Under the pieces are notes generated by a model. That model was given only the letters and a program-made list of their open reading frames with translations, ran no database searches and had not been told where the DNA came from. DNA of 64,000 nt, from contig JAATGT010000183.1 in assembly GCA_015654525.1 (NCBI GenBank), forward strand, positions 25,705 through 89,704. The letters run 5' to 3'. The translations under genes and the position numbers were made by a program. The stretch comes from Bacteroidales bacterium. Lineage in GTDB: Bacteria; Bacteroidota; Bacteroidia; Bacteroidales; Paludibacteraceae. Each line of letters starts with the position of its first letter. Positions within the stretch are counted from its first letter, which is position 1. Of this stretch, positions 13,858-54,816 are shown piece after piece.

Positions 13858-13893
13858 GTACTTAGTTGACAGTTGATAGTTGAAAATTGACAG

Positions 13894-14256
13894 TTAATAC
13901 TTTTTGCTATTTTCTTTTGATGACTTGATTATGCTTACTAACATCTTGATTAATTCCTGACAATCCGATATTATAGATTGAAATGATTTTTCGTCAAAGA
14001 ATTCACTGTCATGCAAAAGCATCAACCAGTATTCAGTCTCATTTGCTTCTTTCAAAGCAATGCTCATCTTATGAATAAAATCAGCCTTTGATTCTGCGTG
14101 CTCAGCTTCTCTGATTAAAGCACCAACTGCGGTTCCGCTTCGTAGCATTTGTTTAGATAATACAAACTCTTTTTGCTCTGAGCTAAGAAATTTATATGCT
14201 TTAATTATGCGTAATGCAAATGTGTATGATTTAAATTTTACTGTTTTCTCTTCCAT
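13894..14256 (-). CDS. Four-helix bundle protein (S23/TIGR02436-like, Avd-related fold)
   Basis: KQMLRSGTAVGALIREAEHAESKADFIHKMSIALKEANETEYWLMLLHDSEF. Confidence 0.85.
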   Translation of the reverse strand: MEEKTVKFKSYTFALRIIKAYKFLSSEQKEFVLSKQMLRSGTAVGALIREAEHAESKADFIHKMSIALKEANETEYWLMLLHDSEFFDEKSFQSIISDCQELIKMLVSIIKSSKENSKKY

Positions 14257-14302
14257 ATAAATGTGTTATAAATCTTCACTATCAACTGTCAACTATACAC
14301 TG

Positions 14303-15067
14303 TCAACTGTCAATTCTTGTTGCTTTGCGTGCCAGTTGCTGAAATACTTCATCCATGCTATTGGCCTTAAATTGATTTTTGAGATTTCTTGGTGAATCTA
14401 GTGCTTCAATTTTTCCATCCACCATGATGGAAACCCGGTTGCAATATTCGGCTTCATCCATATAATGTGTAGTGACAAAAACAGTTATTCCACGTGAGGT
14501 AGCGTCGTAAATCAATTCCCAAAACTGACGGCGTGTGATCGGATCCACACCTCCGGTTGGTTCGTCCAAAAATACAACCTGCGGATTATGGAAAATCGAA
14601 ACCGAGAATGCCAGTTTTTGTTTGAAACCTAATGGTAACGAACCTACCAATTTATTCCGTTCGCTTTCAAAATCTAAGACCTGCATTAATTTATCGGTTT
14701 TCTCTTTGATCTCTTTGTCTTTCATTCCGTAGATACCACCAAAAAGTTCTATGTTTTCCAAAACCTTTAAGTCATCATAAAGAGAAAACTTCTGGCTCAT
14801 ATAACCTATATTTTTCTTTACCAGCTCCGTTTGCGTACCAATGTCGTATCCGGCAACAATACCTTTTCCTCCGGTGGGGATGCTGAGTCCGCTCAACATA
14901 CGCATAGCCGTAGTTTTTCCCGCACCGTTGGCACCAAGGAATCCGAAGATTTCACCCCGTTCCACTTCGAATGAAATATGATCGACTGCTGTAAAGTGCC
15001 CAAATTTCTTAGTCAGATTTTCGGCAATGATTACCTTGTTAGAATTATGTTCGATTATATCGTTCAT
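14303..15067 (-). CDS. ABC transporter ATP-binding protein
   Basis: Walker A GANGAGKT, VVFLDEPTGGVDP, TTHYMDEAEYCNR. Confidence 0.93.
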   Translation of the reverse strand: MNDIIEHNSNKVIIAENLTKKFGHFTAVDHISFEVERGEIFGFLGANGAGKTTAMRMLSGLSIPTGGKGIVAGYDIGTQTELVKKNIGYMSQKFSLYDDLKVLENIELFGGIYGMKDKEIKEKTDKLMQVLDFESERNKLVGSLPLGFKQKLAFSVSIFHNPQVVFLDEPTGGVDPITRRQFWELIYDATSRGITVFVTTHYMDEAEYCNRVSIMVDGKIEALDSPRNLKNQFKANSMDEVFQQLARKATRIDS

Positions 15068-27192: not shown

Positions 27193-27230
27193 TTTCTTTT
27201 TAATCATTTACTACCTGTTAGCACTCGGGG

Positions 27231-27376
27231 GCGACTAAAACCCACTAATTAGTGGCATCAAGTCGCTAATTAGCGATAAAAGCTGCTCCGGAGCGACTGC
27301 AACCTGCTAATTAGTGGCAACAAGTCGCTAATTAGCGACTAAAGGTTACTCCGGAGCGACAATGAACCACTAATTT
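27231..27376. repeat. Tandem array of seven ~21-bp units with palindromic junctions (array 2)
   Basis: Units begin at 27231, 27252, 27273, 27293, 27314, 27335, 27356 (steps 21,21,20,21,21,21); palindromes GTCGCTAATTAGCGAC, CACTAATTAGTG, CTCCGGAG. Confidence 0.9.
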
Positions 27377-36355: not shown

Positions 36356-36500
36356 TTCTGAAATTTTCAAAAGCTTTGCGACGACTGTTTTTGCCTTTCT
36401 GAAAATTTCAAAAGCTTCCCAACGACCGTTTTGGTCCTTCTGAAATTTTCAGAAGCTTCGCGACGACTGTTTTAGTGTTTCTGAAAATTTCAAAAACACA
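36356..36500. repeat. Alternating 21+20-bp (41-bp period) direct-repeat array (array 3)
   Basis: TTCTGAAA/TTTTC cores start at 36356, 36397, 36438, 36479 (exactly 41 bp apart), alternating with TGCGACGACTGTTTTTGCC-type half-units. Confidence 0.9.
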
Positions 36501-51934: not shown

Positions 51935-53401
51935 TTAAATCTTCCACTCAAACCCATCCTTGGTATCTTTTATTTCAAATCCAAGAGCGGTTAGTTCATT
52001 GCGGATTTTATCGCTGGTTGCCCAGTCTTTGTTTTGTTTTGCTTCTAGGCGCATATTCAGCAGTAAGTCGATAGCGCCTTTGTATGCTTCATTGCCCCCT
52101 GAAGTTTCATCCTCTGATTTTAGTCCCAATACATCTTCAATAAAGACACTGAAAACAGTCTTTAATTCCTCTAAATCCTCAGCCGAAATAGTTTCCTTTC
52201 CGTCGTGTACCAGATTAATTGCTTTTAGTGCTTCAAACAGATGAGCAATTACAATGGGTGTATTGAAGTCATCGTTCATGGCCTCCTCGCATTTAGATCT
52301 CAGCGAAGTAGTGTCGACCGAAGAAACAGCCGAAGCCTGAAGTTTTTGTAAGCGGGAATAACCGTCCATAAGCCGTTCAAAGCCTTTTTCGGAGGCCTGA
52401 AGAGCCTCGTTCGAAAAATCCAGCGTGCTCCGATAGTGCGATTGTGCCATAAAGAATCGGACAGTCATGGGCGAGTATCCTCTTTCGAGCAAAGGGTGCG
52501 CCCCTGTAAACAGTTCTTTGGGCAAAAAGCCGTTTCCTGCAGTTTTCGACATTCTGACTCCATTTACCGTGAGCATATTGGTATGCATCCAGTATTTAGC
52601 CGGGGCGGTATGATTACAAGCCTGTGATTGCGCAATTTCATTTGTATGATGAGTAGCCTGCAAATCCATTCCTCCACCGTGAATATCGAATGTAGTTCCA
52701 AGATATTTTGTGCTCATGGCCGAACATTCAATGTGCCATCCCGGGAAACCCCAGCCCCAGGGAGAAGGCCATTGCATAAGTGTTTCCGACTTGGCTTTTA
52801 TCCATAAAGCAAAGTCCAGACGGCCTTTTTTCTCGTTTTGCCCACCCAGCTCGCGTGTACCTTCAAGCAGGTCTTCCAACTTTCGGTTGGTAAGTATTCC
52901 GTAAGGTAAATCTTTATTATATTTTTCAACATCAAAGTAAACCGTTCCGTCAATTTCGTAAGCATAACCGCTTTCCAATATGGCTTTCACCATTTCAATC
53001 TGCTCGGAAATGTGCCCAGTTGCAGTGGGTTCGATACTTGGCGGAAGCGTATTGAAAATAGATAAAATTTCATGAAAACCGATGCTGTATTTTTGTACAA
53101 TCTCCATGGGTTCCAGCTGCTCCAGCTTTGCCTTTTTGGCAAACTTATCATCGCCTTCGTCGCGGTCGCCTTCCAAATGTCCGGCATCGGTTATGTTTCT
53201 GACGTATCTCACTTTATAACCCAGATAAAGCAAGTAACGATAAATCAGATCAAAGGAAATAAAGGTGCGGCAATTTCCTAAATGAACATCGCTGTAAACG
53301 GTAGGACCGCAAACGTACATGCCCACTCTATCATCGTGAAGTGGGATGAATTGTTCCTTTTTGCGGCTTAATGTGTTGTAAATATATAATTTGTGTTCCA
53401 T
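51935..53401 (-). CDS. cysS: Cysteinyl-tRNA synthetase
   Basis: [44 protein letters not shown]. Confidence 0.97.
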
Positions 53402-53473
53402 AATTTGATTTTAAATTTACGATTTCGGATTTACGATTACCGATTGCGGATTTATGATTTACGATTGCGGATG

Positions 53474-53839
53474 TTATGCTTTTTTCTGATTGATCCTATT
53501 TCGAACTGTATTAATGGAGGCAACTATTATTGCCAGTATCTCATTGGTTTCTTTTTTTATGGTTGCGGTTTTTTCAAAAGCAATTAGTCCGCTTTCTTCC
53601 AATACCTCCAACCAATAAATTGTTTCATCTGCTTCCTCTTCAACTATTTTCAGTTTATTGATGAAATCTGCATCCGATTTTGCTCTGCAAGCTGCCCTGT
53701 AGTTTGCCCCAATAGAAGTGGAACATCGTATAATTTGAGCAGCTATGGCTTTCGAAGACGTCTTTACGGGCAAATCATCAATAAGTCTGATGACCTCCAG
53801 CCCTATATTTTTTGTTCGTCTCTTTATTTCTTCTTTCAT
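53474..53839 (-). CDS. Four-helix bundle protein (S23/TIGR02436-like, Avd-related fold)
   Basis: AAQIIRCSTSIGANYRAACRAKSDADFINKLKIVEEEADETIYWLEVLEESGLI. Confidence 0.88.
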   Translation of the reverse strand: MKEEIKRRTKNIGLEVIRLIDDLPVKTSSKAIAAQIIRCSTSIGANYRAACRAKSDADFINKLKIVEEEADETIYWLEVLEESGLIAFEKTATIKKETNEILAIIVASINTVRNRINQKKA

Positions 53840-53906
53840 CCTTTTCTAAAGAAGTAATTCAATCTTATACTATCCAATCGTCAATCTAAAAATCGCAAAT
53901 CGTAAT

Positions 53907-54641
53907 TTAAACTATTCCCCGTTGTTTTTTCAGGCTTTCGTATGCTTCGTTTATCGAACGGAATTTTTCGGTAGCCGATTTTTTTACGTCTTCACCTAAA
54001 TCATTGACTTTATCGGGGTGATATTTCATGGCCATCTGGCGATATGCCTTTTTTATTTCATCGTTGGTAGCAGAAGGCTCTATTTCGAGTGATTTATAGG
54101 CCCAGTCGCTATCCACGTGTTTCAGATATGGCGCTTTGACCGACTCAAAATCGAGACGATCGATACGGAAGATATTCGCAATGCGCTGGATGGTGGCTAA
54201 TTCAGAAGAAACTATTTCGCCATCGGCATAAGCAATATCAAAAAGCAAGTGCAAGAGTTCCAGCTTGGAGGAATAATTCAGATTCTGACTGATTTGCATC
54301 GCCACTTCCGTTTCATCGATATGCTGATCCAGCAGATTTTTGAGAATTTGCAAGGCATCGAGCGCGCCCTGTTCGCCGAAATTAGCAACAAGAAACTTCT
54401 TGACTACTGCTAATTCCGATTTGTCGACGCGACCGTCGGCTTTCATAATGCAGGCCATCAAAACAAGCAGGCTCATTTTGAAATCACCTTCGTTGGTGCT
54501 GCCCGTACCCAGTGTATGTGCCGAAGCTGATATCTGACCTCCATCGAACATGGAGCCTAAGGTAAAGCCAATGAGCGCACCTATCGGGCCTCCCAACGCC
54601 CATCCTAAGCCTCCGCCTATCCATTTTCCGAAACTTCCCAT
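53907..54641 (-). CDS. TerB-like plus DnaJ domain protein (DjlA-like)
   Basis: [35 protein letters not shown]-terminal [33 protein letters not shown]; start 54641 preferred to track start. Confidence 0.88.
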
Positions 54642-54816
54642 AAAGACTTTATTTGAAATGATTTTAGGGGTACAAAGATACAAAAAAATGTACCAATATG
54701 CCAACCTTATGCTGCCAGAAACTAAATAGCGCGTTTTATACGCCGAGACGGAAAACACAAACTCCTACAAATCTTTGCCCGTGATACTGATTTTGTGATC
54801 GGGATATGCAAAATAA

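Follow-up and report, generated by a model that had tools for sequence, protein, structure and literature searches.

The intervening sequence (IVS) in the 23S rRNA of Coxiella burnetii is a compact element of 428-444 nt that carries an S23p open reading frame and is closed by a 28-bp terminal stem within which RNase III cleaves. Tandem GACAGAT heptamers, two or three depending on the strain, stand before the reading frame, and the 5' cut falls at the first of these repeats (PMC4990558). A further source notes homology between PF05635 and Avd (PMC10053308), and another describes gene-less arrays of TAACTGA heptamers in Beggiatoaceae, cyanobacteria and Bacteroidetes, for which a role as regulatory sites was proposed (PMC4679880). 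A literature search, outside whose scope most subscription journals lay, found no paper describing such arrays at the flanks of IVP genes that lie outside rRNA.

We examined a window of 64,000 nucleotides (the whole stretch of DNA analysed) from a Bacteroidales bacterium of the Paludibacteraceae, which holds two such genes, here called cassettes A and B with their flanks. The cassette B gene (53474..53839, minus strand) was identified by profile searches and by matching of a model fold as encoding a four-helix-bundle IVP/S23 protein of 121 aa. The protein scores 67.2 bits against PF05635 (curated cut-off 33.8) and 94.8 bits against TIGR02436 (curated cut-off 24), its AlphaFold2 model has four helices in a bundle with a mean pLDDT of 95.1, and the top PDB matches of that model are 2rld and 2gsc, of the S23 family, followed by the DGR Avd chains 8ub7 and 4dwl. 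On profile and model evidence the protein is a member of the PF05635/TIGR02436 four-helix family with an S23 fold, and the structural matches bear out the IVP/Avd-like fold that had been proposed from the sequence. The likeness to DGRs is one of fold; unlike a DGR, the element carries no reverse transcriptase, and the two RVT_1 matches of its own genome lie on contigs C65 and C258, whereas the window lies on C93.

The neighbours of the cassette B gene were assigned from the ORF list and domain searches. Upstream lies a DjlA-like gene with TerB and DnaJ domains (53907..54758, with the start of the longest ORF), downstream lies cysS (51935..53401, beginning 9 bp past the tract), and all three genes run in one direction on the minus strand. 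The site is thus between the DjlA-like gene and cysS, not in a 23S rRNA helix. The arm on the cysS side (53410..53472; Tandem Repeats Finder, score 84) is a degenerate heptamer array with a period of 21, that is 3x7, at 81% matches, periods of 7 and 14 being reported too. The arm on the djlA side (53875..53911; inverted-repeat search and arm alignment) is inverted and covers the djlA stop codon (TTA, 53907-53909); no strand is assigned to either arm. This is the arrangement given in the original prediction, a gene between the DjlA-like gene and cysS with inverted tracts, the opposite one holding the djlA stop. The tracts, which had been called iterated, are indeed inverted, but the arrays, spanning from the djlA stop to just ahead of cysS, are degenerate and not perfect repeats, and their complementarity is only moderate, the best arm alignment being 22 nt at 82% complementarity with the arms 457 nt apart. 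Dinucleotide shuffles of the 100-bp flanks reached the observed arm score in 3 of 1000 cases.

Cassette A, the second family member in the window, has its gene at 13894..14256 on the minus strand (PF05635, 100 bits; translation and ends checked). One arm (13863..13899) is a heptamer array of AGTTGAC type that overlaps the 3' end of the gene by 6 bases, and the opposite arm (14278..14313), found by repeat searches, is an inverted heptamer array, both again without assigned strand; none of 1000 dinucleotide shuffles of the 100-bp flanks reached the observed arm score. The two cassettes had been taken for unrelated loci. Their proteins are 29% identical and fall in one 12-row clade, and by this comparison they are divergent members of one subfamily, not unrelated families. 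RNA folds of both cassettes are better than those of shuffled sequences (z -2.6 for B and -3.0 for A). Elsewhere in the window, tandem repeats with longer units (27223-27375, period 62; 36356-36495, period 41) are apparently unrelated to the cassettes.

Cassette B resembles the Coxiella IVS in having an S23-family ORF, a length of 0.4-0.5 kb and terminal inverted repeats that would form a stem, in its degenerate heptamer arms, to be compared with the tandem heptamers before the Coxiella ORF, and, as a class, in sporadic distribution and recurrent use of the same sites (PMC4990558). Unlike the 23S rRNA IVSs, the host here is a protein-coding operon or gene, and the arms consist of locus-specific tandem units on both sides. 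Between the arms of cassette B the ORF list and domain search revealed the IVP gene alone and no transposase, unlike the situation in a classical IS or DNA transposon.

To compare arms across the family, we aligned the upstream flank of each gene to the reverse complement of its downstream flank, with cross-locus pairings as controls. An arm score of at least 30 was reached by 85 of 151 family loci and by 5 of 604 cross-locus pairings, and the median was 31 within loci versus 17 across loci (Mann-Whitney p 4e-52; 151 loci, 604 controls); 49 of the 151 loci scored below 25. This count used all but one of 152 compiled loci, L234 being too short. Left out beforehand were L004, L006, L023, L030 and L055 (fragment or internal stop); left out as duplicates were L019 (a near-duplicate of L018) and L065, L072 and L082 (of L008, L013 and L011); and from the 80 motif-retrieved loci L182 (duplicate of L013) and L195, L216, L249 and L250 (short flank) were omitted. 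The loci are mostly the best-scoring family member per genome or motif-retrieved, and only the G024/G052/G001 set, with 15 of 19 loci at 25 or above and 9 of 95 controls, comes near to all copies. The other samples reached a score of 25 in 23/30, 13/28 (the phylum sample) and 51/74 loci. In 400 kb of the sister genome G001, 13 of 299 ordinary genes reached at least 25, and 3 of these 13 are IVP genes. Direct-orientation matching of flanks gave a control-like median of 18, yet 22 of 151 loci reached 25. Outside the Bacteroidota (a group of 44 in which two records, L212 and L233, bear no other name than 'uncultured bacterium'), 19 of 31 loci exceeded the 95% control level, among them Acidobacteriota, Planctomycetes, Kaiserbacteria, Omnitrophota, Atribacterota, Geobacter and Clostridiales. 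The proposed link between this family and paired inverted short-unit tracts, for which a large-scale survey finding no association had been named as the refutation, held when such a survey was run.

The array unit is 7, 8 or rarely 9 bases long and varies among loci, while both arms of one locus usually match. Among the 88 loci scoring at least 28, the unit length is 7 bp in 39 and in a further 21 that read as 14, 8 in 21, 9 in 2 and none clear in 5. An AGT motif with an inward bias of G over C is common (89/102 loci). Two loci, L181 and L186, combine an octameric left arm with a heptameric right arm, which counts against perfectly concerted change. The genome to which the window belongs contains five family copies, one of them frameshifted and each in a different setting; the four with clear arms have four different units, so that, unlike those of a classical IS, the terminal inverted repeats are not common to the copies. 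The frameshifted copy (L004, contig C50) has flanking arrays that do not match each other (score 16), a single case which suggests that arm matching decays together with the gene. The IVP protein itself is, as judged from dN/dS values of 0.03-0.21 in 10 pairs, under purifying selection. Mismatches between arms were sense-tolerated in 73 cases and antisense-tolerated in 91 (p 0.18), and because they carry no wobble bias, selection on RNA pairing is not shown by them.

The placement of the elements relative to host genes is also regular. Of the 102 loci scoring at least 25, 98 have an upstream neighbour that runs in the same direction, 2 have one in the opposite direction and for 2 none was found, against a baseline of 249 co-directional pairs among 299 in G001 (p 2.5e-6 for 98/100); for the downstream neighbour the co-directional fraction (86/98) is not significantly enriched (p 0.15). 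The left arm begins a median of 4 bp past the upstream stop, and the start of the next gene lies a median of 9 bp beyond the right arm, while co-directional gaps of up to 60 bp make up about 4% of the intergenic bases in G001. The overlap with an upstream stop that had been thought typical applies to the 48 of 98 left arms whose beginning falls within -6 to +10 bp of the stop and not to the rest of the loci with clear arms. By their neighbourhoods, the elements are strongly biased to sense placement behind a co-directional gene. An Rfam scan for rRNA hosts at 18 loci, mostly without clear arms, returned tRNAs and an FMN riboswitch but no rRNA.

Evidence for gain and loss comes from junctions that could be compared among genomes. 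A search for SdhA succeeded in 56 of the 61 family genomes, and the 30 sdhA-sdhB junctions fetched comprise 4 with an IVP element, 1 with a GxxExxY (PF13366) gene, 2 with a tract only (L140 and L144), 1 that ends before sdhB and 22 with none. In the genome most closely related to the host (SdhA 96%) the junction is empty. Junctions without an element often have gaps of 4-11 bp, which cannot be aligned base by base with the filled ones, and no target-site duplication is definable. The DjlA-like gene stands ahead of cysS in 9 of 30 fetched loci, with an IVP gene between them in the genome of the window only; G001 has a short repeat tract without a gene at this junction, and in G052 an IVP that is 71% identical and has the unit type of cassette B lies behind djlA, at a contig end. 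Twelve IVP residents of sdhA-sdhB have differing units (AGTAAACG, AGTTACR, AGTTGACR, ACAAGAAA, AGTTTTTA and others), and their arm scores have a median of 39.5 on the diagonal versus 20 off it. For 6 of the 12 the own partner arm ranks first in its row, and for 4 it ranks second. A single clade takes in 11 of the 12 proteins, together with two Dysgonomonas copies that by inspection are at sdhA-sdhB too; L221 falls outside. L221 and L183 share 97% SdhA identity, with IVP proteins 50% identical and different units, and L001 and L011 share 90% SdhA identity, with IVP proteins 60% identical and an 8-mer and a 7-mer unit. Since there is one main clade, yet SdhA and IVP identities are discordant, both persistence of residents and independent invasions have occurred at this junction. 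Over 66 non-independent pairs of the 12 loci, SdhA and IVP identity correlate at rho 0.22 (p 0.08).

Relocation is indicated by copies at different sites. The element lies between fadB and fadA (names given by recognition of the proteins, not by family search) in L222, from Flavobacterium fluvii, and in L248. A copy in L197, whose protein is 85.6% identical and whose tract is of a similar TGTATAAT type, lies ahead of fadB, the product of which is about 90% identical, and the comparison places related copies on opposite sides of one gene. L248 is labelled Limnohabitans; because the genes around its element match Flavobacterium, the contig has probably been misbinned. Different genes adjoin the elements of L042 (Bacteroidota) and L226 (Myxococcota), whose proteins are 65% identical and whose tracts have a 6-mer overlap of 0.92. 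Among pairs at different sites, a tract overlap of at least 0.3 was found in 5 of the 48 whose proteins are 60-75% identical versus about 16 of 3288 below 50% (the counts 5 and 16 being back-calculated from fractions), and on these alignments tract type follows the close relationship of the proteins, across sites as well as phyla. A plasmid search returned 38 records, mainly cyanobacterial. At the level of sequence comparison, the distribution is patchy; one junction occurs filled, empty and as a relict, and one has been occupied repeatedly. The mobile part of what had been called a non-autonomous mobile cassette is borne out by these empty, filled and relict sites, by reinvasion and by the two sides of fadB; neither the term non-autonomous nor the proposed repeat-targeting system is, and no transposase or integrase was identified.

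A second type of site lies within genes. At two of 152 loci a longer ORF, in the +2 frame of the IVP gene, encloses the entire IVP ORF; the host is a PglX gene in L036 and a type III methylase gene in L042. In the PADLOC PglX profile PDLC02522, the translated insert takes up positions 271-413 or thereabouts. This stretch is missing from most of the full-length PglX genes that the profile retrieves, and aligned PglX proteins lack some 140 residues just ahead of the motif DPACGSGH. A further four nested copies (L305-L308) came from hits to the insert stretch of PDLC02522; each lies in a DNA methylase gene in which frame +2 is open and frame +1 is broken by 2-12 stops. The hosts of the six nested copies are PglX, type III and Eco57I-like DNA methylases, a bias that may partly reflect ascertainment, L305-L308 having been retrieved via a methylase profile. 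L305 and L308 have clear arms; those of L307, L042 and L036 are weaker, and L306 has none by score. Rickettsia palindromic elements are likewise tolerated in frame within protein-coding genes; they are short and not known to carry a gene of their own, whereas a separate gene is present here and is read in another frame. Annotators should be aware that the element has entered protein models, as in the PADLOC PglX profile.

Comparable flanks surround other small genes. Of the 61 family genomes, 28 carry GxxExxY (PF13366) genes, and 16 of 27 loci reach an arm score of at least 26 versus 4 of 135 controls, the 27 retaining five mis-anchored truncated loci (L149, L157, L163, L167 and L170); the flanks carry inverted CACRRAG-type tracts with units mostly spaced 8-10 bp. 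A GxxExxY gene can also hold an IVP-type junction, as in L127 at sdhA-sdhB. IVP copy number and GxxExxY number correlate (rho 0.50), and each correlates with genome size (0.42 and 0.35), so no link between the two is claimed. DUF559 genes are found in 27 of 61 family genomes and frequently lie within long open frames; the 95% control level is exceeded at 10 of 18 loci, but here the repeats share a consensus across loci. Inverted CCCCCTAAA-type repeats lie on both sides of the DUF559 genes L311-L340, and the methylase ORF of L305 has one DUF559 gene in frame alongside the IVP element. Most period-7 arrays in 400 kb of G001 (C1:1000001-1400000; L255-L274) have no adjoining IVP gene, and several fill co-directional gaps. 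As arrays are also found without the gene, heptamer arrays are not exclusive to it. Unlike the elements studied here, the TAACTGA arrays are described without a partner arm and without an IVP gene (PMC4679880); some of them may be leftover arms.

We consider it likely that cassette B is a copy of a widespread, IVS-like and probably selfish element lodged in transcripts outside rRNA. Such an element would consist of a single IVP/S23 gene flanked by two tandem arrays of 7-9-bp units in inverted orientation, and it would lodge where the harm is small: between a stop and the next start, within a gene whose frame it keeps open, or in a helix of the 23S rRNA. Because the parts of the Coxiella IVS recur here outside rRNA, we infer that the arms could pair in mRNA and form an RNase III-type stem as in the rRNA IVSs. 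The IVP protein may be expressed from the host operon and bind the arms or their RNA. Spread would proceed through horizontal transfer and a putative transposition step with functions supplied in trans, and the arms would be renewed jointly through slippage and conversion between them.

Some sites look long-resident, with 11 of 12 sdhA-sdhB proteins in one clade, and this counts against the mobile-element reading. Also weighing against the preferred reading are the neutral wobble result, the common gene-less heptamer arrays of G001, the lack of a definable target-site duplication, the loci with low arm scores (49 of 151 below 25, and 15 of 28 in the phylum sample), the arms of unequal period in L181 and L186 and the non-significant downstream enrichment. 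An alternative, which we regard as improbable, is that the cassette is a resident and useful intercistronic device, vertically inherited and often lost, in which arms and protein form an RNA-processing or attenuation switch tuning the flanking genes. The related proteins at the conserved sdhA-sdhB location in several families, the strong constraint on the protein, the sense orientation and the better-than-shuffled folds would all suit such a device. It accommodates poorly the absence of the element from most sampled sdhA-sdhB junctions, the unrelated occupants of L221 and L183 despite their SdhA similarity, the great diversity of neighbour genes, the in-frame copies inside methylases, and the related copies on both sides of fadB.

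There is only a slim chance that the element is a retro-element whose Avd-like protein guides an in-trans reverse transcriptase in copying excised RNA into new transcripts or genes. This reading draws on the fold kinship with DGR Avd, on the PF05635-Avd homology noted in the literature (PMC10053308) and on sense-only placement in transcripts, but across 61 genomes IVP copy number shows no relation to RVT_1 (rho -0.04), G001, a genome in one contig, gives 9 matches to IVP and none to RVT_1, and 10 genomes without RVT_1 hold at least 5 IVP copies. A resident reverse transcriptase is accordingly not needed for high copy number.

A slightly slimmer chance still attaches to the view that the arrays are a general intercistronic sequence of Bacteroidota with IVP genes merely among them, which fits the gene-less arrays of G001 and the gene-less TAACTGA arrays reported in other bacteria (PMC4679880), but not the matching of arms within and not between loci, as at sdhA-sdhB, nor the tracking of close protein kinship by tract type across sites and phyla, nor the gene-less tract L140 at a junction where relatives carry the whole element.

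Beyond the preferred reading of a selfish, IVS-like element, a broader statement has in our estimate about an even chance of being correct: the rRNA IVSs would be the best-known outpost of a general, cross-phylum class of transcript-embedded mobile elements, each with a tiny gene (IVP, separately GxxExxY and perhaps DUF559) and locus-private inverted arrays renewed in concert, inserted in sense behind stops or in frame. If this is true, the in-frame copies would be DNA that codes for IVP in one frame and for an insert of the host protein in another. The orphan S23/IVP ('four helix bundle protein') family would then gain a biological context, elements within protein operons would be tied to the intervening sequences of rRNA, and the scattered reports of heptamer arrays would be connected.
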